From: an uncultured Chthonomonas sp.
GTDB lineage: Bacteria > Armatimonadota > Chthonomonadetes > Chthonomonadales > Chthonomonadaceae
DNA length: 48,505 nucleotides
NCBI GenBank assembly: GCA_903919615.1
Contig: CAIXIX010000281.1
Coordinates: 1 to 48,505 of the forward strand
Direction of reading: 5' to 3'
This document shows positions 1,233-37,856 of the stretch, piece by piece (position 1 is the stretch's first letter; each line of letters starts with the position of its first letter). The position numbers and the translations under genes are program-made. A model generated the notes under the pieces. It did not search any database. It saw only the letters and a program-made list of their open reading frames with translations, and had not been told where the DNA came from.

Positions 1233-1970
1233 ATGATTGAGCTGAAGCTTCGATCTCGAACATCTGATGGAACTGTCACGATCGAGACTGTGAGGATTTC
1301 GCCTTCTGCGCTCGCCGTGATCGTATGCGATATGTGGGATCGGCACTGGTGCGTTGGGGCCACAAGTAGGGTAGATACTATGGCGCCTGTCATGAACTCG
1401 AGCCTGAAACGCCTTCGAGATGTTGGCGCGCTCATTATCCATGCTCCCAGCGACACCATGAAGTTCTACTCGGGCTCCCCGGCTCGCGCACGTGCCGTAG
1501 AAGCGCCGATGGTTGAGGCTGGCTGCGATCTAACATCGTGGCAACGTCTCGATGCTTCCTTTGAGGGCGAGCTGCCAATCGATGATTCGGACGTCGGATG
1601 CGATGATGTCCCGGTGTGTGTGATACCAGAGGTGATGCCGTGGTCTAGGCAACACCCCGCAATCGAAATAGCGGATGCAGACGCAATAACGGAGAGCGGA
1701 CAGCAGGTTCATAACCTGCTTGAGCAGTACGGAACGGAATTGGCGCTCATCATGGGAGTTCACACAAACATGTGTGTTCTCGGTCGGTCCTTCGGTATTC
1801 GCAGCCTTGTTCGGGCTGGCCGCCGCGTTGCGCTCGTTCGCGACCTTACCGACACGATGTATTGCAGCCGCATGTCTCCGTTTGTGTCGCACGAAATGGG
1901 CACTCAGCTAGTTATACAGCACATTGAAACGCACTGGAGCCCGAGTATCGACAGCGCTGAGCTATTTTAA
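1233..1970 (+). CDS. isochorismatase-fold cysteine hydrolase
   Basis: Cysteine hydrolase of the isochorismatase-like superfamily (nicotinamidases, carbamoylases, isochorismatases). Seen directly: the early beta strand with the catalytic Asp in VIVCDMWD (D33), the later motif GVHTNMCV carrying the nucleophile Cys (C181 by my count), and the following helix and LVRDLTDTMY segment typical of the fold. The substrate cannot be told from sequence; no nicotinamidase metal motif stands out. The start could be a TTG at 1215 or the ATG at 1233; I chose the ATG as neither has a strong Shine-Dalgarno sequence. It follows the nuclease gene closely on the same strand and converges with the MFS permease gene, whose end lies only 20 bases away. 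No signal peptide, so cytoplasmic. Confidence 0.85.
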   Translation: MIELKLRSRTSDGTVTIETVRISPSALAVIVCDMWDRHWCVGATSRVDTMAPVMNSSLKRLRDVGALIIHAPSDTMKFYSGSPARARAVEAPMVEAGCDLTSWQRLDASFEGELPIDDSDVGCDDVPVCVIPEVMPWSRQHPAIEIADADAITESGQQVHNLLEQYGTELALIMGVHTNMCVLGRSFGIRSLVRAGRRVALVRDLTDTMYCSRMSPFVSHEMGTQLVIQHIETHWSPSIDSAELF

Positions 1971-1990
1971 CGAAAGTGAATACGCGTCCT

Positions 1991-3355
1991 TTATAGCTGT
2001 TGCTCAACTGCAGCGACAACGACTTCTACCCGAGCATCAGCCGAGGCAATGTCATTCGAACGTGGCCTTCTTAGAAGCAGCGCGAACGCTGCGCCGATAA
2101 TCATCAGCGCCGAAGCCATATATAATCCGGGTCCAAAATCCCCTCCAGAGCGCTTTCTTATCTCACCCATTAACATAGGGCCAACAAAGCCGCCGAGGTT
2201 ACCTACCGAATTGATTAGCGCGATACCACCTGCGGCAGCACGAACGCCCATCAAGTTCGAAGTCGCAGCCCAGTAAGAACCTGCCGCGATACGTTCCCCG
2301 AGCGCATTGAGCGCTAATGCCGCTACCAGCAGGCTGGCAGTCGGCGCGTGTGCAGCCACAATAAAAGCGACGCCCGCGAGGAGATATCCTGCCGCTACAT
2401 GATAACGACGGTTGCCTGTTCGATCGGAGTGGCCCGCAGCCAGCGTCATCGCGATGGCGCCAACGATCGCTGGAATGATCAGGCTCATCGAAACACGGCT
2501 GTCGGACCAGGCTCCAGCGCTCAGAGATTTTATTATCTGCGGGGCGAAAAAGCCTACTGCATTGCCTCCTGTGGCAGTCGCAAAGAAAACAATGCACAGC
2601 ACGAGTATCCGCTTGTCTGCAAATGGATTTCGCATGGAGATGTGCTGAACCTGATCCAGCATTCGTGCATCCTCGTTCAACTTGCCGACGATCCACTGCT
2701 TTTCTTCACTCGTGAGCCATTTCGCATTCTCGGGTTTGTCCGGCAGCAGCAACCACACAGCGACGCCTAACAGAACCGATGGAATGCCCTCCACAAGAAA
2801 TAGCCATTGCCATCCTCGAAGGCCGATTTTCCCGGTAAGATTGAGCAGCATGCCTCCAAGGATTGGGCTCGCGAGAGCAAAAACAGCCTGCATAGATAAG
2901 AAACGCGCCAGAGCCCTCGCGCGCGCTTGCCCGGGAATCCAGTATGTAAAATAGAGGACAATGCCGGGGTAGAAGCCAGCCTCAGCAATACCGAGGAAAA
3001 ACCTAAGGGTGCAAAACTGAGCAGGAGTCTTGATCAGCATCATGCACGCAGAGAGAATCCCCCAGGAGATCATGATCCGAGCGATCCACCGACGCGCACC
3101 GGTTCGCTCCATAATCAGATTGCTTGGAACTTCAAACAGGAAGTAGCCAATGAAGAACACACCGAATCCAAAGCCGAAAACGACATCGGAGAAGTGCAGA
3201 TCACCCCGCATCTGGAGTGCTGCATAGCTCACGTTTGTACGGTCAATGATGCAGAAGGCGTAGAGAAGCGAAAGAAAGGGAATGAGTCGAGAGTTAACTT
3301 TTCGCAGCGCTGAGTCCGCGATGCGCTGTTCACGTGAGACTGCTTCGTCTGCCAT
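1991..3355 (-). CDS. MFS permease, anion:cation symporter type
   Basis: Twelve-helix major facilitator permease of 454 residues. The N-terminal pattern (DRTNVSYAALQM, then a GYFLFEVPSN segment and LGIAEAGFYPGI) is that of the ACS family, whose members carry sugar acids, tartrate, phthalate or other organic anions with protons. The loop after helix 2 has the ERTGARRW signature, and a long charged loop (EEKQWIVGKLNEDA) separates the two halves. The ATG at 3355 has a good GGAGGG Shine-Dalgarno sequence just upstream. It lies 47 bases downstream of the carbonic-anhydrase-like gene on the same strand, so both may be one transcript. A hexuronate or other sugar-acid substrate would fit the glycoside hydrolases nearby, but that is inference from position. 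Confidence 0.9.
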   Translation of the reverse strand: MADEAVSREQRIADSALRKVNSRLIPFLSLLYAFCIIDRTNVSYAALQMRGDLHFSDVVFGFGFGVFFIGYFLFEVPSNLIMERTGARRWIARIMISWGILSACMMLIKTPAQFCTLRFFLGIAEAGFYPGIVLYFTYWIPGQARARALARFLSMQAVFALASPILGGMLLNLTGKIGLRGWQWLFLVEGIPSVLLGVAVWLLLPDKPENAKWLTSEEKQWIVGKLNEDARMLDQVQHISMRNPFADKRILVLCIVFFATATGGNAVGFFAPQIIKSLSAGAWSDSRVSMSLIIPAIVGAIAMTLAAGHSDRTGNRRYHVAAGYLLAGVAFIVAAHAPTASLLVAALALNALGERIAAGSYWAATSNLMGVRAAAGGIALINSVGNLGGFVGPMLMGEIRKRSGGDFGPGLYMASALMIIGAAFALLLRRPRSNDIASADARVEVVVAAVEQQL

Positions 3356-3402
3356 GCGCCCTCCATTTGAGAAGGCAAGTTAGTGAGAAGGTGTGCCGTA
3401 CG

Positions 3403-4023
3403 CTAAGAACTGCGCAGGTCGACAAATCGCACGGTACCGTCGCCGTGCACTTCTGCCCGGTAAACAAGCACTGGAATCTGGGGAACGAGCCTTGCTATAA
3501 TCTTGAGCGCCTCGAGCGCATCTTCGTGCTGCTGACGTTCTATCTCGGAAACGGATGCATCTGGGAGCAGTCTCTTGTAGTGCGCACAAACAGAATCGGA
3601 TGGACCACCAGGACCGGCGCCATGAAACAGAAGCACGATCTCTTCGATCTGGTGTGCTTCAATGAGGAATTTCAGTTCGCGCTTTAACTGGTCTGTTCGA
3701 ATATCGAAGGTGCCAATGCCGAGGCAACCTGGACCACCTGGAGCATATAGTCTGTCATAATCAACCACGCCGAGCTTTTGTTCGAGAAACTCGTCTATGC
3801 TCTTTTGTAGTCGCCCATCAGAGCATGCTACTACCAGCGTGCTTGGCCGCCTGCGTCTCCACGTATACGCGCCTGAAAACACAACTCTCGGAGAGTTCCC
3901 GGGATCATTAAGCTGACGATGAACATCAGCATGATCCGACGAACTGTGAGTTTCTGCGGAAGGTCTGTTGTTGACTACTTGTAGCTCAATCAATCTTGGT
4001 AGTATGTTCCTTTCATGGCACAT
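3403..4023 (-). CDS. beta-carbonic-anhydrase-like protein with degenerate zinc site
   Basis: Protein of 206 residues with the beta-carbonic anhydrase core: a beta strand leading into ACSDGR (C67, D69, R71, the zinc Cys and the Asp/Arg dyad of the family) and a later strand ending in LLFHGAGPGGP (H134). In true beta-carbonic anhydrases the pattern here is HxxC, giving the third zinc ligand; this protein has Gly where the Cys should be (position 137). The enzyme may therefore be inactive, bind metal differently, or belong to a divergent subfamily. The first 50 residues look poorly conserved and the true start may be internal. The gene is divergent from the GH29 gene and upstream of the MFS gene on the same strand. 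Function unknown; do not assume CO2 hydration. Confidence 0.7.
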   Translation of the reverse strand: MCHERNILPRLIELQVVNNRPSAETHSSSDHADVHRQLNDPGNSPRVVFSGAYTWRRRRPSTLVVACSDGRLQKSIDEFLEQKLGVVDYDRLYAPGGPGCLGIGTFDIRTDQLKRELKFLIEAHQIEEIVLLFHGAGPGGPSDSVCAHYKRLLPDASVSEIERQQHEDALEALKIIARLVPQIPVLVYRAEVHGDGTVRFVDLRSS

Positions 4024-4024
4024 C

Positions 4025-4054
4025 TCGACGGAATCGCTCCCATGAGATTATAAT
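4025..4054 (+). promoter_or_regulatory. candidate sigma70-type promoter for the GH29 gene
   Basis: A perfect -10 hexamer TATAAT (4049-4054) lies 18 bases after a weak -35 (TCGACG, 4025-4030). It would give an untranslated leader of about 130 bases before the GH29 start at 4191. The same spot also reads TATAAT on the minus strand (4052-4047), so it could serve the divergent carbonic-anhydrase-like gene as well, although no good minus-strand -35 is seen. Confidence 0.4.
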
Positions 4055-4190
4055 ACGCCTACTGCGAGTTGATCGTTACAGGCACATAAGCCCTGTGCAC
4101 GTTGCAGTGCTTGCACATTCTACCAGATTTTACAGGCGATACCGGCCGTTGCTTTGGCCGGCAGAACCTGTAAGCCAACGGGAGTCGAAA

Positions 4191-30115: not shown

Positions 30116-31105
30116 TTAACGCTTAAAGCTGTCTGGCGACATTGGATTATCGAACAACCGACCACCAGCAAGTTTTTGCAGATGTTCTCCGTCAGTTCCA
30201 ATACGCCATAGGCTGCATTCAGGACCTGCACTTCCGCCATTGGGCCAGTCTTCTTCTAAAAAGAAGATTGCTTTGCCATCTGGACTGTAGCGAGGACAAA
30301 AACAGCCGCCACTCCTAGGCGTTAGTAGGGTGGGCTGTCCGCCAGCTACAGGCATCACATAGATCTTCAAGTCGGGGCTGTATTGACCTTGTGTGAATGC
30401 AACCTTGTCGCCGCTGGGTGAAAATACGGCATCTCGCCCCTCATTAACAATCTGTCGTGGCGTGCCGGACCCATCGGATCGTGCGACCCACACGCCTTCT
30501 GTACCCCGCCAGAGTAGCATTTTGCCATCTGACGATAGCCTTGGCGCATCGGCCCAGATGTTAGATGGCAATACCCGCCTTAAGTCGGTACCATCACGCT
30601 TTATCGACCAGACAGAACCGCCGCCGCTCCAGCTTGTCGCCATCCCACCCCAATTGTAGTGTGTGTCGTGCGTAAATAGAATGCGCGAGCCATCCGGAGT
30701 GAATACTGGTGCACAGTCATTTGCATCTTCAGATGTAAGCTGTGTAATCCGATGGGTTTTCAAGTCTTGCAGATAGAGATGGTCTGCACGATCCCAACGG
30801 CGTCCAGACGAATAGACAATTGATCGACCATCTGGTGAGAATGTGGGACAGCTCTCATATTCCGGTGAATTCGTTACCGCAGTAACATACATCTTGTTCA
30901 GATCGAGCATGAACAGGTCACGACCGCCCTTGCCGATAGCATTAAAGACCAGGCGGCCGCCGCCGGGAGCGCAACTGAACGAGATATCCTGATATCCAAA
31001 CGGACGGGTATGCTGGGTCATACAGCTGCGCAGCGCGATGATTGCAGCGACAGATACTGCGCTAATCAGAATACAAGTTCCAACACGCTTTTTCCACCAC
31101 ATCAT
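30116..31105 (-). CDS. membrane-anchored TolB-like beta-propeller protein
   Basis: Protein of 329 residues: a short cytoplasmic start (MMWWKKRVG), one membrane helix or uncleaved signal (CILISAVSVAAIIALRSC), then a propeller of TolB/PD40 repeats. Blades are clear: CPTFSPDGRSIVYSSG, CAPVFTPDGSRILFTHD, APRLSSDGKMLLWRG, DAVFSPSGDKVAFTQG and CPRYSPDGKAIFFLEE. Conserved SPDG turns define each blade. No enzymatic motif is visible; such proteins usually bind partners or ligands outside the membrane. It lies 106 bases downstream of the M56/BlaR-type gene on the same strand and may share its transcript, so a role in the same signalling system is possible but unproven. Confidence 0.8.
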   Translation of the reverse strand: MMWWKKRVGTCILISAVSVAAIIALRSCMTQHTRPFGYQDISFSCAPGGGRLVFNAIGKGGRDLFMLDLNKMYVTAVTNSPEYESCPTFSPDGRSIVYSSGRRWDRADHLYLQDLKTHRITQLTSEDANDCAPVFTPDGSRILFTHDTHYNWGGMATSWSGGGSVWSIKRDGTDLRRVLPSNIWADAPRLSSDGKMLLWRGTEGVWVARSDGSGTPRQIVNEGRDAVFSPSGDKVAFTQGQYSPDLKIYVMPVAGGQPTLLTPRSGGCFCPRYSPDGKAIFFLEEDWPNGGSAGPECSLWRIGTDGEHLQKLAGGRLFDNPMSPDSFKR

Positions 31106-31211: not shown

Positions 31212-34200
31212 CTAGTTCGGATGTACCTTGTGACGTACCAGGGTCACACCAGTATCGCCAGCCTGAGCGGTAATCCGATCATTCTGGTAACCGGCGCCGT
31301 TCATTAGATAGAGAACCAGTTCTTCTCTTACGACACCATCGATGCGGAACCGTCCCTGTTCATCTGAAACGACCTGCTGCATAGCAGTTGATCTGCCCTG
31401 TACCGCGATCGTCTGTTTGCCGAGAGAATTACCAGCTTCATCCACAACCCGACCTGAGACGAAACTGTCCGCTCGTAGCGGACGGAGTTCGCCCAGATCC
31501 ACCTTCTTGCCAGGCTGATGCTGGATCGCCTGGGTTCTCACTTCGCCGTATCCCGAGGGACTAACCGACACTGAATATCGCGGATCCGGAAATAGATGCG
31601 TAAACGTGAAGTGTCCCCTCAAGTCTGTGTTAGCCGTCATGGTGCTCATGCCCATCTCTTGTGGCCATTCGTACAGAGTTACCCGGACGTTGACCATCGG
31701 GCGCCCTTTCTCATCGAAAGCCTGACCGGAAATGGTCAGCATCGCATTCGATTTTAGCTGCAGAATTACATCTTCTCCGCGCCGTGCAATGATGGCCTTT
31801 TCTGTCGCGAGGCTGCCGAATGATGCTTGCACGGAGGCCGATGCTGCGTGTTCACCTGGAAACACGTCCAATAGCGGCACATCGCACGATCCATTCATGT
31901 CGGTTTCCACATTCAGAATTGAGCCTGCATCTGCGTGCATGCTCTGCGGAAACACACGGACCATCGCGTGGGCTACTGGCTTTGCATTTGGACCAATAAC
32001 ACGAACATGGATAGGTCTCTGGTCTTTCACCGCTGCCGGCGTCAACGCATAATTCTGAGTATGAACCTCACCGTCGCGCACTTCAAACTCAACTCCACCT
32101 TGCTTAGGTAATGGTTCATATTCATTGGCCGGCGCTCCCTGCAAGTAAACATACTGCTGACCTGCCGGGACGCGAGCATGGAAGACGCCACGTGAGTCGG
32201 TTTGGATCGACTGAACCGCATCACCCGAACGTGGATGGGCAGGCCCCTGGATGCCGATCATGACCTGAGCAACAGGTAATCCCGTGCTCTTATTGGTAAC
32301 TGTTCCGGTGATCTCCGCGCCTGGTACGAGTACGAAGTCGTGACGCAACGGCGTTCCTGAATTTAGCGTTGCCCTGTCAAGAGCAAAGGCTGAAAAGGAG
32401 CGCTCCAGTTCGCCGTGTAGATATACTTCGACATTGTAGTTCCCGGACGAGAGGTGCCGGATATCATATCTGCCACTCGCATCCGTCATCGACTGCCCAC
32501 CGGGTTGGTGAGAAATGCTTTGTGCGATAACCAAAATCCCGCCGACAGGCTTTCCGTCCGGCAGGGATATCTGTCCATGCACGCTGGCGCCGGGCTGTAG
32601 CTGGATTGGGCCAGCCTTCTGCAAGGTCGTATCGTTGAGGGTTATTGACTGGTCATAATCCGGTTGCGCATATGGTCCGTCGATCGCGAAGCTTACTGTG
32701 GCGCCTTGTGGCAGTCCAGGGAATGTACATCCGCCAGTCAAATCGGTCTTTTGCTCCCAGCGGCCATGCATTGTGGAGGGGATTTCGAGATAGCCACGAG
32801 CGCCGGGATGCCTGTCAACGAGTGTCCGGACCCGCACATGTACATTCGTGGCCGGCTTTCCCGTTTCATCTATAAAAGAGACATGAACGGATGTAGAAGG
32901 CTTTAGTTCGAGCATTACTGTAGCGGTTTGCAAGCCGAGACGAAGTGTCTGGTAGGTCAGTCCCCATCCCGGAGCCTGTGCAAGAAGGGTCGCTATTCGA
33001 TTATCGCCAACTGCTGGCGGTCGATTAGCAAAGGCAAACTGACCGTGGATATCTGTTTCGGAAACAGACAGCATCGCCACCGCACCATCCGGATTCCGCT
33101 CAATCCAGGTCACGGCTGCATGCGGCGCCGGAACACCTGACGGCGTAACCACCTTACCCGTGACATTCCCAGTACTGGATCCCGCAGTCTTTCGTGCCGA
33201 CTCACTGGCAGGAGTAACTACGCGGCTTGAGCCGTGCGCAACACGCGATATCAGTACGGCTTGCACTGCCGATTGCTGTGCATAAGCCGGTAATAAAATC
33301 GGGTGAGCCAGCGCTGTGGCCGCAAGCATACACGAAGAGATTCCCCAGAAAATCGTGCTGAATCGCATAGACACTTCCCGCCTGCATACGGTTGTGGCGA
33401 GAATCCGGCGCAGCCGGATCTCCACTTTTGGGCTCTGCGCCATCGTCACCGCCCCTGTCGCATCGCCCGGCAGGTAGGGCAGAGCGCCGTGAGCGCATTG
33501 AGCGACGTCAAGCAGGTGTTTGGCATACTCTTTAGGTGCCATGCCTGCAGAGAGAACCATATCATCACAGGCGGCCTCACTTTCAAGGCGCAACCGTTGA
33601 GCGGCAATCCAAGCTAACGGGTGAAACCAGTAGAACGAGCGGACCACCTGAACAGCAGTTTGAATCAACCAATCGCGACGGCGAATATGTGCGGCTTCGT
33701 GTAGAATTGCAGCCCGGAGCCGTTCGGCAGGCCACGTCTCCGAACCCGCTGGCAGCACAATTACGGGCCTCATAGCTCCATAAGTTAAAGGAACGCTGAC
33801 ACTATCCCGATCGGTCATTATCCGGATGGAAACTTCCGAAGTCCCGCGTGTGGCAGCCACGGACCTGGCCACGATATCGATGCATGATACATTGGTCAAG
33901 GGCACACTTCTTTGCCAGATCGATCGCAAACCTGCGTACACTCTTGCTAGGCGAGCCAACGCTATGATTGCGCCAAGAGCCCATAGGATCAAAACATGGT
34001 CCGTGGCAAAGAGCCGTTTACGGCCATCTTGTTGGAGTTTAATCGCAGGCTGCGGGGCGAATGCAGGCAAGTTATGGATATCACTGGTTTGGCTTACTTT
34101 AGGTAAGCTTTCCACGCTTTTCACTGGCATCGTCACGGTGTAATTGGCATGTAACCCTGGGTCTGACGCGATCGGAATAGCTGTGGTGGGTTTTGGGGTC

Positions 34201-34415
34201 AGAATCCTAATTGGAATGTGCCAGCCCGGTAGGGTAAGTATCAAAACTGGCAGAACACCGGATCCTATTAACCCAATCGTCCATATCTGATGCCGGAATG
34301 ATGCCGATGCTCGCATTGAGAATAGCGCGATTGTCGAAGAAACTAGCAGGAGTATCGTCGCTCTCACCGTAACATCTGCAAGCGAATGGGCAAGGCTGGT
34401 CCAATGGCTGCTCAT
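31212..34415 (-). CDS. BlaR1-type M56 membrane metallopeptidase with carboxypeptidase-regulatory-like repeats
   Basis: Receptor-like membrane peptidase of 1067 residues. The N-terminal third has membrane helices (ATILLLVSSTIALFS, IGLIGSGVLPVLILTL, HVLILWALGAIIALARL) and the M56 domain with zinc site ILHEAAHIRRRDW (H239, E240, H243) and ESEAACDDMVL. Another helix lies near 350. Where BlaR1/MecR1 carry a penicillin-binding sensor, this protein instead has seven carboxypeptidase-regulatory-like beta domains, recognised by openings such as NVTGKVVTPSGVPAPHA, SVHGQISLPDGKPVGG, EITGTVTNKSTGLPVAQ, TISGQAFDEKGRPMVN and FVSGRVVDEAGNSLGK. Known for BlaR1: signal binding triggers proteolysis that removes the BlaI repressor. 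The ATG overlaps the BlaI stop by four bases and has an AGGAG Shine-Dalgarno sequence, so the pair is coupled. The ligand here is unknown; beta-lactam sensing is not supported. Confidence 0.9.
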   Translation of the reverse strand: MSSHWTSLAHSLADVTVRATILLLVSSTIALFSMRASASFRHQIWTIGLIGSGVLPVLILTLPGWHIPIRILTPKPTTAIPIASDPGLHANYTVTMPVKSVESLPKVSQTSDIHNLPAFAPQPAIKLQQDGRKRLFATDHVLILWALGAIIALARLARVYAGLRSIWQRSVPLTNVSCIDIVARSVAATRGTSEVSIRIMTDRDSVSVPLTYGAMRPVIVLPAGSETWPAERLRAAILHEAAHIRRRDWLIQTAVQVVRSFYWFHPLAWIAAQRLRLESEAACDDMVLSAGMAPKEYAKHLLDVAQCAHGALPYLPGDATGAVTMAQSPKVEIRLRRILATTVCRREVSMRFSTIFWGISSCMLAATALAHPILLPAYAQQSAVQAVLISRVAHGSSRVVTPASESARKTAGSSTGNVTGKVVTPSGVPAPHAAVTWIERNPDGAVAMLSVSETDIHGQFAFANRPPAVGDNRIATLLAQAPGWGLTYQTLRLGLQTATVMLELKPSTSVHVSFIDETGKPATNVHVRVRTLVDRHPGARGYLEIPSTMHGRWEQKTDLTGGCTFPGLPQGATVSFAIDGPYAQPDYDQSITLNDTTLQKAGPIQLQPGASVHGQISLPDGKPVGGILVIAQSISHQPGGQSMTDASGRYDIRHLSSGNYNVEVYLHGELERSFSAFALDRATLNSGTPLRHDFVLVPGAEITGTVTNKSTGLPVAQVMIGIQGPAHPRSGDAVQSIQTDSRGVFHARVPAGQQYVYLQGAPANEYEPLPKQGGVEFEVRDGEVHTQNYALTPAAVKDQRPIHVRVIGPNAKPVAHAMVRVFPQSMHADAGSILNVETDMNGSCDVPLLDVFPGEHAASASVQASFGSLATEKAIIARRGEDVILQLKSNAMLTISGQAFDEKGRPMVNVRVTLYEWPQEMGMSTMTANTDLRGHFTFTHLFPDPRYSVSVSPSGYGEVRTQAIQHQPGKKVDLGELRPLRADSFVSGRVVDEAGNSLGKQTIAVQGRSTAMQQVVSDEQGRFRIDGVVREELVLYLMNGAGYQNDRITAQAGDTGVTLVRHKVHPN

Positions 34416-34852
34416 TTAGTTTCTCCTGTTTCGGAGGTGGATCGGCTCGTTGCGTCATCGCTGCTGTTTTGGGCGGTCACGGAGCTCTCGATCAGGTTGT
34501 ACAGGCGCGCCGCTTCGTCTTCTGAGAGCTCTGTCTCCGCCTCTGTCAGCAGAGTTGCGACCGCTGTCTCGAGGTTGCCGCCAAAGAAGGTCGTGAGGAC
34601 CTGCTTCATGGCAGAGCGCGCGGCGCTCTGGCGCGGCTGGGTGGGAATATAGATGAAGTGCTGGGCCTGCTGCACGTGATGTAGGTGACCGCGCTGCTCA
34701 AGGATCAGGATTAGCTTCCGCACAGAGGAGAGGCTGGGAGGGTCCGGCAAAATCTCAAGCACCTGCGCGGCAGACGCCTGGCCAAGGGTGTAAATCGCGT
34801 CCATGATCTGGCGCTCACGGCGGCTCAAACGATGAGTTAACGGCTTCGACAT
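34412..34852 (-). CDS. BlaI/MecI/CopY-family transcriptional repressor
   Basis: Winged-helix repressor, 146 residues from the ATG at 34852 (Shine-Dalgarno AGGAGG, spacing about 6). The DNA-binding domain is LSRRERQIMDAIYTLGQASAAQVLEIL followed by SVRKLILILEQRGHLHHVQQAQHFIYI (given in parts), and the C-terminal helices (MKQVLTTFFGGNLETAVATLL, EDEAARLYNLIE) match the BlaI dimerisation region. The tail is Ser/Thr-rich and acidic. In known systems BlaI dimers bind inverted repeats near their own promoter and are cleaved after activation of the partner BlaR1; two matching inverted repeats lie directly upstream at 34869-34884 and 34912-34929. An 11-residue upstream extension is open but would start inside operator 1. 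The partner gene follows with a four-base overlap. Confidence 0.93.
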   Translation of the reverse strand: MSKPLTHRLSRRERQIMDAIYTLGQASAAQVLEILPDPPSLSSVRKLILILEQRGHLHHVQQAQHFIYIPTQPRQSAARSAMKQVLTTFFGGNLETAVATLLTEAETELSEDEAARLYNLIESSVTAQNSSDDATSRSTSETGETK

Positions 34853-34868
34853 CTGCTTCCTCCTGTGC

Positions 34869-34884
34869 TGCGAATATTTTCGCA
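34869..34884. promoter_or_regulatory. operator-like inverted repeat 1 (BlaI site candidate)
   Basis: TGCGAA, four bases, TTCGCA: a perfect 6-bp inverted repeat. It overlaps the predicted -10 and start point of the blaI-like gene's promoter, the right place for a repressor. The same half-site recurs in operator 2, 44 bases away centre to centre, about four helical turns. Confidence 0.75.
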
Positions 34885-34905
34885 TTTGGATTGGTGTTGT
34901 GTCAA
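34876..34905 (-). promoter_or_regulatory. promoter of the BlaI/BlaR-like operon
   Basis: Minus-strand -35 TTGACA (34905-34900, perfect) with a weak -10 GAAAAT (34881-34876) after 18 bases. The start point would be near 34869, giving a short leader that contains just the Shine-Dalgarno sequence before the ATG at 34852. Operator 1 covers the -10. Confidence 0.5.
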
Positions 34906-34911
34906 TAGCGG

Positions 34912-34929
34912 TTGCGAAAAAATTCGCAA
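34912..34929. promoter_or_regulatory. operator-like inverted repeat 2 (BlaI site candidate)
   Basis: TTGCGAA, four A bases, TTCGCAA: a perfect 7-bp inverted repeat sharing its core half-site TGCGAA with operator 1. It is immediately followed on the plus strand by TATACT (34931-34936), a -10-like element facing the ECF sigma gene, so a protein bound here could control that gene as well. No clear plus-strand -35 is visible. Confidence 0.75.
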
Positions 34930-34989
34930 TTATACTCGCAAGCAGTGCGATCTGGATTATAGACCCAACCCAAAGCCAAAATTAGTCCC

Positions 34990-35661
34990 ATGGTCCTAAC
35001 AAATCCGACCTGTATTTACGTCAGACCGATACAGGAGCAATTTAAGTCGATGGCATTTGAACCGGTTCAGGCAATTGGCGCTTCAGTCAACTTCGCAACA
35101 GAAGATGTTAGCGATGCGGAAGAAACTGCCTGCCTGGATAGAGCTCGTGCCGGTGACTCACCTGCTGTAGATTGGCTCGTAACTCGATATAGGGTTCGTG
35201 CTGTTCGTCTGGCGATGGTGGTTCTAGGGCGGTCTGGAGAGGCGGAGGATGCTGCTCAGGAGGCATTCATTAAGGCGTTTCGTAATCTTCACCTCTTCCG
35301 TGGTGACGGAAGCTTTAAATCCTGGCTATTCCGAATTGTGGTACGCGTGTGTCTGGATAGAACGAGATGCCCCAACTGGAATGCAGAAGTCGAACTCAAC
35401 TTTGACGATGACGACGTTACGGGGATCCCGGCGGTCGATACGAATGCCAATTTGCGGATCGCGGTCAGGTCGCTCCTAGGCGAAATGAAGCCTCAGATGC
35501 GTGCGATACTAATCCTCCGCGAACTTGAGGGCCTCGAGTATGCAGAAATAGCCTCGATACTCGGCATACCGACCGGACGCGTTAAGTGGCGCCTGCACGC
35601 TGCCCGCAAAGATTTTCAAGTGCTCTGGACGAAGATGGAAGAGGAGGTGCGACGTGTTTAG
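34990..35661 (+). CDS. ECF-type RNA polymerase sigma factor
   Basis: Extracytoplasmic-function sigma factor of up to 223 residues. Region 2 is seen in AVDWLVTRYRVRAVRLAMVVL and GEAEDAAQEAFIKAFRNLHLFRG (split for length), with SFKSWLFRIVVRVCLDRTR; region 4 in LLGEMKPQMRAILILRELEGL, YAEIASILGIPTGRVKWRLHAARK. The linker is acidic. The start is uncertain: ATG at 34990 has no Shine-Dalgarno sequence, and ATG at 35050 has AGGAG but about 12 bases away; homology only needs the later one. The gene overlaps the next (GTG at 35654), which probably encodes its anti-sigma factor. It is divergent from the BlaI-like gene and shares its operator region, so both operons may respond to the same signal. Targets are unknown. 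Confidence 0.93.
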   Translation: MVLTNPTCIYVRPIQEQFKSMAFEPVQAIGASVNFATEDVSDAEETACLDRARAGDSPAVDWLVTRYRVRAVRLAMVVLGRSGEAEDAAQEAFIKAFRNLHLFRGDGSFKSWLFRIVVRVCLDRTRCPNWNAEVELNFDDDDVTGIPAVDTNANLRIAVRSLLGEMKPQMRAILILRELEGLEYAEIASILGIPTGRVKWRLHAARKDFQVLWTKMEEEVRRV

Positions 35662-36064
35662 AAGGCTTCCTCCGATGGATGAGGACACTCTCTGCAGAGG
35701 GCTGAGACAGCTTAAAGCCCCCGATACCTCTGTTGACTTCAATACCAGCATCACTCGGGCATTGGCGCAATCGCAGCAGCAACAATTATCGCCGAGGAGC
35801 TCGCTTGTTCGCAATATGATTGCGATGTCGGCTTCATTTGCAGCCATGCTGGCGCTGCTTCAGTATGTGTCGGCTGGCAGTGCACATTACAGGGCAGGCG
35901 CGGTTTACCGGCCCTTACCCGGCACCTATCAGATGCTTGAATCGCAGCAGTGGATAGATTCTGGCGGCAATATTGATCTTCCTCCCAGCGCTTGGTCATC
36001 GGGCGTGATTCACATGGGGCAAGAGCGATATGATGCGGACGGTTCGCTCTCTCACGGTGTATAA
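35654..36064 (+). CDS. putative anti-sigma factor, single-span membrane protein
   Basis: Protein of 136 residues starting at a GTG (35654) that overlaps the end of the sigma factor gene; GAGGAGG lies just upstream. The first 50 residues are hydrophilic (MDEDTLCRGLRQLKAPDTSVDF), as expected for a cytoplasmic sigma-binding segment; one membrane helix follows (MIAMSASFAAMLALLQYV), then about 65 residues outside with Tyr, Trp and Pro residues. Size, topology and overlap with an ECF sigma gene are those of an anti-sigma factor. The zinc-binding HxxxCxxC motif of many anti-sigma factors is absent, so this would be a non-zinc type; sequence alone does not prove binding. The next gene begins 10 bases after its stop. 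Confidence 0.65.
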   Translation: MFRRLPPMDEDTLCRGLRQLKAPDTSVDFNTSITRALAQSQQQQLSPRSSLVRNMIAMSASFAAMLALLQYVSAGSAHYRAGAVYRPLPGTYQMLESQQWIDSGGNIDLPPSAWSSGVIHMGQERYDADGSLSHGV

Positions 36065-36074
36065 GGATCAGACA

Positions 36075-37856
36075 ATGAACAGGGACCTATACGTAAACTG
36101 GGGCAAGCTCAAGACGCCGCTTCGTACTCTGCCTGCCATCGCAACCGGGGCAATGCTTGCTGTGTTGATCTGGCCCGCGACGCGTCCCATTGTCGTCAGG
36201 CAGTTCAGGCTTTTGGTCCCGACGCCAAGCGCTATTGCCGCAGTATCCTTTGCGAGTTATGTCGATCAGCAACACTCTCATAGCATCGATTCACAGCTAC
36301 AGGCTGCAGCGTCCTCACACCCAAACAACAGCGGGATACAGATCGCTGCGGCAATTACGGATACACCATCTAATGGCACTCTAGATACGAACGTTAAAAT
36401 TCGACACATGCAGGTGGTCATGAAACAGTTCCCGGATAGTCCGGACGTCTGTGCCGAAATGTTGCGCTTGTATTGTCTTGGCAGGGTGCGCATCTCACGA
36501 AAAGAGTTTGGTGACTTTTTCTTACCGCCTGGTGCTGAGTCCCAGTATAAGAGTTCGGTCCCTCGACCGTCGTTCGAACAGGATTTAAATGACTACATGG
36601 CAGTTTGTAAGAGAGGAGAGAGGCTGGATCCCGACAATGCCGTATTCCCCCTGCTGGAATCGATCGCTCTCTTTGAAGCACGCCGTGATCGCGAAGCTAT
36701 CGATGCCCTGATAAAGTCCAGTAAGTCAACCAGATGGGATGAATACGTTCAAACAGAATATCGTGGGCTATGCGACCTTCACGAAGCAGCATTCGGTACC
36801 ATCAGTCCTGAAACAAGCTCGGGTCTTGCCGCAATGATCCTGCTGCCACATTATGCAGGCATTCGTGCCGCAGCCCGCGGCGCCGTCTATGAAGCTGCCA
36901 TGCTGGAGAAGCAGGGACAAATCGACAAAGGCCTTGAGATACGCTCTGCAGTACTCAAAATAGGCGAATTGATGCGGGTTAATTCCCGCAATGCTATTGG
37001 CAACCTGGTGGGAATCGCCCTTGAGGGGCTCTCGGTGGCGAAACCCGCAGCGCTGGATACGATAGTCATTATCGAAAAGGATTCTATCGCTGGCGCAAAG
37101 ATCACCGGTGAGAAGTTTGCTAAGTTTGAGCAAGCTCACGGCAGAGCCGCAGCGGCGGATGCCTTTGTTACCGAGCTCAAGACCTGCACGAAGACAAAAG
37201 AAATACTGTCACGCGGGCTAAGAGGATCCGTATTTTCCGGATCTGCAATTAACGACGCAGTTATTGCGAACATTGTCAATATGATCCCTCTCTGTTCCGC
37301 GGTCTGGATACTCGGTCTCGCACTCTGTGTAATGGTGTTGGGACGAGCCGTTGCATCCCGAACGGTTTGCGCTATACCGTCTGGCGCACGGAATGCATTG
37401 TTCTCCTTTGTGTGCCTATTCACAATCTGCGCAATGGCTGCCGTTCTGACCTGGTACACATTAAGAACAACTGGGGTATTCGTCACGGTACTTACCATTA
37501 TCGGTAATATGTCAAATGTTATGGACAATCTCACGGAATCGCAAGGCAGCCCGACGAAAGGCTTCAATCTGTCAATTGCACGGCTGTATGTCCCGATCAT
37601 TCTGTCAGTACCCGCCTTCGTTACCTGTGCCTTGATCGGATTTCAGCGCGTCAGGTGGCGTCCCGTAATATCGGGAATTGCCAGCATGGTCCCGTGGATT
37701 ACGGCGCCGGTTGTGGGTCTGCTGCTGATTGTTTACTGCTTAACGCTTCCGTCAACCGCTTCGAAGGAGCGGCTACTCAGTGATGGCCTGGCTCAGACGG
37801 TCGCTCACGAAGGTAGGTATGCGGCGAAACTTATAGGAAAAGAGTGGCCAAATTAG
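36075..37856 (+). CDS. multi-span membrane protein of unknown function with helical-repeat domain
   Basis: Unrecognised protein of 593 residues from the ATG at 36075 (Shine-Dalgarno AAGGA). It has one membrane helix near the N-terminus (TGAMLAVLIWPATRPIVV), then a hydrophilic region of about 370 residues with TPR-like helix pairs (CKRGERLDPDNAVFPLLESI, MLEKQGQIDKGLEIRSAVLK), and a C-terminal membrane part of about five helices (MIPLCSAVWILGLALCVMVL, FSFVCLFTICAMAAVLTWY, VPWITAPVVGLLLIVYCL). It is the third gene of the sigma/anti-sigma operon and likely a regulated target or sensor partner. The final TAG overlaps the stop codon of the convergent deaminase-like gene. An upstream in-frame start at 36030 overlaps the anti-sigma gene and is not preferred. 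Confidence 0.75.
   Translation: MNRDLYVNWGKLKTPLRTLPAIATGAMLAVLIWPATRPIVVRQFRLLVPTPSAIAAVSFASYVDQQHSHSIDSQLQAAASSHPNNSGIQIAAAITDTPSNGTLDTNVKIRHMQVVMKQFPDSPDVCAEMLRLYCLGRVRISRKEFGDFFLPPGAESQYKSSVPRPSFEQDLNDYMAVCKRGERLDPDNAVFPLLESIALFEARRDREAIDALIKSSKSTRWDEYVQTEYRGLCDLHEAAFGTISPETSSGLAAMILLPHYAGIRAAARGAVYEAAMLEKQGQIDKGLEIRSAVLKIGELMRVNSRNAIGNLVGIALEGLSVAKPAALDTIVIIEKDSIAGAKITGEKFAKFEQAHGRAAAADAFVTELKTCTKTKEILSRGLRGSVFSGSAINDAVIANIVNMIPLCSAVWILGLALCVMVLGRAVASRTVCAIPSGARNALFSFVCLFTICAMAAVLTWYTLRTTGVFVTVLTIIGNMSNVMDNLTESQGSPTKGFNLSIARLYVPIILSVPAFVTCALIGFQRVRWRPVISGIASMVPWITAPVVGLLLIVYCLTLPSTASKERLLSDGLAQTVAHEGRYAAKLIGKEWPN

Follow-up and report, generated by a model that had tools for sequence, protein, structure and literature searches.

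The BlaI-M56 operon and the ECF sigma factor operon that lie head to head in the window (the whole stretch of 48,505 nucleotides that was analysed) are very probably two independent modules of known types, each with its own promoter and its own controls. We regard their adjacency as the result of chance or of a recent juxtaposition in this Chthonomonadales MAG. The original prediction was that one signal, acting through a shared operator, switches both operons, and the locus was proposed as the best candidate for an undescribed system in the window. The five-gene layout was found as described, with overlapping blaI and M56 genes pointing away from the genes for the ECF sigma factor, the putative anti-sigma factor and the membrane protein (Table 1). 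The coupling was not borne out: the operator pair is found equally at loci without a divergent gene, the ECF operon has its own promoter, and the two operons are separate in relatives. With the coupling unsupported and both modules of known kinds, the proposal of an undescribed system was dropped. Sequence comparison provided the gene families, the operators with their position on the BlaI promoter and their conservation without ECF, as well as the ECF-type promoter, which is likewise conserved where BlaI is absent.

Table 1. Features of the divergent locus (window positions)
Feature	Position	Strand	Remarks
M56 membrane metallopeptidase	31212..34415	(-)	Pfam Peptidase_M56 PF05569, HEAAH; 4-bp overlap with blaI
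BlaI/MecI/CopY-family repressor	34412..34852	(-)	146 aa, start MSKPLTHRL; Pfam Penicillinase_R
Operator O2, TGCGAATATTTTCGCA	34869..34884	.	Exact palindrome over the -10 of the BlaI promoter
BlaI-M56 promoter	34876..34905	(-)	TTGACA (34905-34900), 18 bp, TGc-GAAAAT (34881-34876)
Operator O1, TTGCGAAAAAATTCGCAA	34912..34929	.	Exact palindrome immediately upstream of the BlaI -35
ECF-type promoter TAACAA-N16-CGTC	34997..35022	(+)	Motif common to homologous ECF upstream regions
Ribosome-binding region (SD), GATACAGGAG	35028..35037	(+)	Common to paralogue C54
ECF sigma factor	35050..35661	(+)	Start probable, longer ORF from 34990; Pfam Sigma70_r2/r4_2, TIGR02937
Putative non-zinc anti-sigma factor	35654..36064	(+)	136 aa, one TM (51-69, hydropathy); operon position
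Membrane protein	36075..37856	(+)	C-terminal TM segments; member of conserved ECF operon; no Pfam match

The repressor and the M56 protein

In a Pfam profile search, the repressor matched the Penicillinase_R winged-helix domain with an E-value of 1.5e-23 (83.7 bits, cut-off 22.6). Its start, previously read at 34885, was corrected to 34852, where the ATG is preceded by AGGAGG and a short spacer. The closest BlaI relatives come from Armatimonadota (63% identity), and the only PDB match is MecI (1sd6). The recognition helix reads SSVRKLI and includes K46. The residues T88-F89-F90 are invariant across six aligned relatives and presumably belong to the stretch around the known N101-F102 cleavage site, in a part where the alignment is weak.

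The M56 protein contains the Peptidase_M56 domain (E-value 5e-29, Pfam), with HEAAH at residues 239-243 as its HExxH motif. Its C-terminus is made up of carboxypeptidase-regulatory (CarboxypepD_reg)/Ig-like repeats; Pfam detected no C-terminal penicillin-binding sensor domain, and the NCBIfam model blaR1_generic gave 80 bits at a cut-off of 400. The earlier label “BlaR1-type” is thus correct for the M56 domain, but not for the penicillin-binding sensor domain, which is replaced by the repeats. Because the repeats stand where the penicillin-binding domain would be, a beta-lactam sensed in the manner of BlaR1 is an unlikely signal. By analogy with BlaR1, where there is precedent for cleavage of the repressor by the M56 domain (PMC9834060), the M56 protein may cleave BlaI. 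The M56 gene is followed after 106 bp, on the same strand, by a gene for a PD40/WD40-like beta-propeller protein (30116-31105, (-)), and the two could share one transcript.

Operators on the BlaI promoter

The two perfect inverted repeats with the half-site TGCGAA that had been noticed between the operons were confirmed, both being exact matches to TGCGAA-N4-TTCGCA, with 44 bp from start to start of the cores. The gap itself had been given as about 135 bases and measures about 197 bp with the corrected gene starts. A consensus scan of positions 34700-35200 detected the BlaI-M56 promoter as the sole sigma-70-like promoter, and O1 and O2 lie around its TTGACA and -10, so that the window BlaI has predicted palindromic operators overlapping its own promoter.

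The genome-wide tests comprised pattern searches and family searches. Exact TGCGAANNNNTTCGCA sites (TGCGAA-N4-TTCGCA) occur three times in the 7.42 Mb genome, and O1 and O2 are the only two exact copies with an A/T spacer; allowing one mismatch together with an A/T spacer added a single site genome-wide. The third exact palindrome (C154) and the one-mismatch site (C4) were considered as further BlaI targets and rejected, both being located within ORFs. The genome-wide site search that had been suggested with the original prediction thus left O1 and O2 as the only plausible sites, and the whole-genome pattern search yielded no further plausible BlaI site. Since the off-locus sites are few and lie inside ORFs, a binder of TGCGAA palindromes would, as far as can be read from the sequence, act at the window locus only.

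To place the pair in context, we compared the DNA upstream of 106 BlaI genes, a set in which the window appears twice; the remaining 104 come from Armatimonadota, Planctomycetota, Poribacteria, Acidobacteriota, Verrucomicrobiota, Gemmatimonadota and further phyla. Using the pattern TGYNAA-N4-TTNRCA twice and accepting near matches, we found a pair of like palindromes at 41-46 bp spacing in 40 of the 104, while shuffled controls (50 mononucleotide shuffles per region) contained no pairs at any distance. At four loci (L013, L034, L023 and L102) the distance of the pair from the gene equals that in the window. In the window and the first three of these, the pair can be read around a TTGACA -35 with the downstream site over the -10; the placement of O2 is matched in Capsulimonas (L013 and L102). 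Where pair-bearing loci had sufficient upstream DNA, the neighbour was on the same strand in 21 and divergent in 20, as counted by a simple longest-ORF rule and with the window entered twice among the divergent ones. As the upstream neighbours are half tandem and half divergent, the pair serves no divergent gene; to judge from these comparisons, it is a generic BlaI self-repression promoter that is independent of any such gene. Operator spacings of 19 bp were seen at 10 loci and may reflect an alternative arrangement of the operators. Upstream of blaI at L005 (G000:C136) there is a 35-base palindrome, TGCTAAACTTTCAGCATAATGCTGAAAGTTTAGCA, which equals two operators 19 bp apart.

Residue 46 and the half-site

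Among the columns of the BlaI domain, mutual information with the half-site type peaks at residue 46. Lysine is found at this position in three proteins, all from Armatimonadota, with TGCGAA/TGCG in 4/4 half-sites each, while most other BlaI proteins combine alanine with TGCTAA half-sites; the three K46 proteins are related to each other, and the correlation is thus supportive but not independent. Six further BlaI-family genes of the same genome have differing upstream palindromes where such were found (TGCTAA, TGTTAA, TACGAA and TCTACA types). The expectation that BlaI binds the repeats was therefore kept: palindromes sit on the BlaI-M56 promoter as in relatives and K46 goes with TGCGAA, which suggests that the window BlaI probably binds O1 and O2.

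The ECF sigma factor operon

The sigma factor has Sigma70 region 2 and region 4_2 and lacks region 3 (Pfam), and it scores above the cut-off of TIGR02937. Translation probably starts at 35050 and not at 34990, because the conserved promoter and the SD would fall inside the ORF if the upstream start were used. The motif [GT]AACNN-N15/16-CGTC precedes the gene at a comparable distance in 20 of 30 distinct homologous ECF upstream regions including the window (0.36 expected from dinucleotide shuffles). Leaving the window out, it is found in 19 of 29 homologous ECF operons, all of which are without BlaI in the roughly 1.5 kb read to either side (about 0.4 expected). The pattern was chosen after reading the same sequences, so the significance is somewhat overstated, but the margin is large. 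The ECF-type promoter lies 67 bp from the end of O1. For the ECF operon, consensus scans turned up no promoter of the sigma-70 type, but such scans might overlook a weak one that overlaps O1.

No Pfam or NCBIfam match was obtained for the putative anti-sigma factor. Its tentative placement in class I is based on its position and on homologous operons with zf-HC2; a short motif around D-F, recognised by eye, is common to it and to proteins of the homologous operons, some of which have zf-HC2. In these operons the ECF gene is followed by an anti-sigma-like gene and then by a homologue of the membrane protein. Such homologues were found in 68 of the 151 genomes searched, often adjoining an ECF gene. 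In paralogue C54 (L182, G000:C54), an ORF from about 4263 encodes the membrane protein fused in frame to an anti-sigma-like N-terminus; this fusion suggests that the two parts function together.

Linkage between the two operons

The original prediction had called for a search for the same gene order in related genomes, and the relatives keep the two operons apart, the outcome that had been named as refuting it. No other homologous ECF gene had a BlaI gene within about 1.5 kb on either side (less at contig ends), and no ECF gene of the window type was found beside other BlaI genes among the loci examined. The nearest BlaI relatives (Capsulimonas-type, L184 and L102), which have the same half-sites, have a divergent neighbour that we named PadR-like by eye. 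At both loci the PadR-like regulator gene and the one or two membrane-protein-like genes after it diverge from blaI-M56, and at L104 a PadR-like gene occupies the same position upstream of blaI. With no operator over the second promoter and no conserved linkage, the locus does not qualify as a BlaI-controlled divergon that includes an ECF operon.

At the planctomycete locus L142, an 810-aa open frame (1735-4164, (-)) that includes an ECF sigma factor diverges from a BlaI-M56 operon, and the DNA between them contains GCGAAAAAATT/AATTTTTTCGC repeats. We considered this locus as independent support for linkage and rejected it: it is one of 104 loci, the ECF is a different, unrelated one in a long open frame, and the frequency is near that of chance neighbours. 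The window's genome has 36 sigma region 2 genes, from which the chance of an ECF neighbour is roughly estimated at < 1% per locus; with so many such genes, an occasional ECF neighbour of BlaI is unsurprising. A contig chimera at the operon junction was also considered, but GC content is even across the junction. Literature searches for ECF sigma factors with BlaI/M56, for BlaI in Planctomycetes and for BlaI operators in Acidobacteria returned nothing relevant, which does not imply that such work is unpublished.

Proposed regulation of the locus

We infer binding, protease action, autoactivation, the signals and the absence of cross-control as follows. A BlaI dimer on O2 would cover the -10, a dimer on O1 would sit immediately upstream of the -35, and together they would shut off transcription of blaI-M56. 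An envelope signal, probably other than a beta-lactam, would activate the M56 protease, which would cleave BlaI and release the operon. The sigma factor, anti-sigma factor and membrane protein would be transcribed from a separate ECF-type promoter that lies 67 bp past O1, and this operon would be autoactivated once the anti-sigma factor lets go.

In the original prediction, BlaI on O1 and O2 represses both operons, and proteolysis by M56 turns on both, so that the signal reaches a sigma-factor regulon. The head-to-head genes, the short distance between their likely starts and the two strong operators in between fit this model, as do the Firmicutes bla/mec divergons, in which one repressor serves both sides (PMC3305447). 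We nevertheless consider it very unlikely. The BlaI promoter already accounts for both operators, and operons whose upstream neighbour is in tandem retain them; the ECF promoter lies 67 bp past O1; none of the other homologous BlaI or ECF loci examined shows this gene order; and in Capsulimonas, where the operators are the same, the divergent gene is PadR-like. A lineage-restricted version, in which O1-bound BlaI additionally weakens the ECF promoter and the M56 receptor gates a sigma-factor regulon, has a similarly slim chance of being correct; if true, it would be a newly made link between two signalling types.

Coupling by mere proximity, with derepression of BlaI altering supercoiling or clearing O1 and thereby modestly affecting the ECF operon, needs no dedicated shared operator. 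The promoters point away from each other at about 100 bp (-35 elements about 92 bp apart), which leaves room for supercoiling or repressor crowding, but no sequence feature demands such an effect and the arrangement is not conserved. We judge it unlikely; it is compatible with two independent modules and could hold in addition. The opposite direction of control, with the ECF sigma factor driving blaI-M56, would agree with the general observation that ECF regulons often include neighbouring genes. However, the minus strand of the gap has no ECF-type motif and the BlaI promoter is sigma-70-like, and we consider this extremely improbable.

The reading as two independent modules closes a tempting lead, since BlaI-ECF coupling found no support. 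What is worth keeping is the conserved double operator and residue K46 in the recognition helix. Position 46, at which A, T, K and S occur in this dataset, covaries with the operator half-site, and together with the double operator (41-46 bp, several phyla) it could permit operators to be predicted from sequence in the little-studied BlaI-M56 systems.

Comparison with known systems

The BlaI-M56 operon resembles the bla/mec systems of Bacillus licheniformis and Staphylococcus aureus (BlaI/MecI, BlaR1/MecR1) in having a BlaI-family winged-helix repressor, an adjacent gene for an M56 protease and several operators in the promoter region, of which there are three in B. licheniformis bla (PMC3305447); cleavage of the repressor by the M56 domain would likewise be expected (PMC9834060). 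It differs in that the operon has no beta-lactamase or PBP gene, that the M56 protein has no penicillin-binding sensor, that the half-site is TGCGAA and not of the TACA..TGTA type, and that an ECF sigma gene with its own promoter lies on the divergent side. Closer counterparts are the BlaI-M56 operons of Armatimonadota, Planctomycetota, Poribacteria, Acidobacteriota, Verrucomicrobiota and others, among which we found no characterised examples. There too, M56 is directly downstream and many have the 41-46 bp pair, but their half-sites are mostly TGCTAA and no ECF operon of the window type adjoins.

The second operon departs from some homologous operons with zf-HC2 (C474, G011) in that its putative anti-sigma factor is without the zinc motif, as is common among anti-sigma factors (PMC7406223), and from ECF sigma/class I anti-sigma operons in that it continues with a membrane protein without Pfam assignment. 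With the latter it shares the order of an ECF gene followed by an anti-sigma-like gene with one TM segment, and the ECF-type promoter ahead of them.
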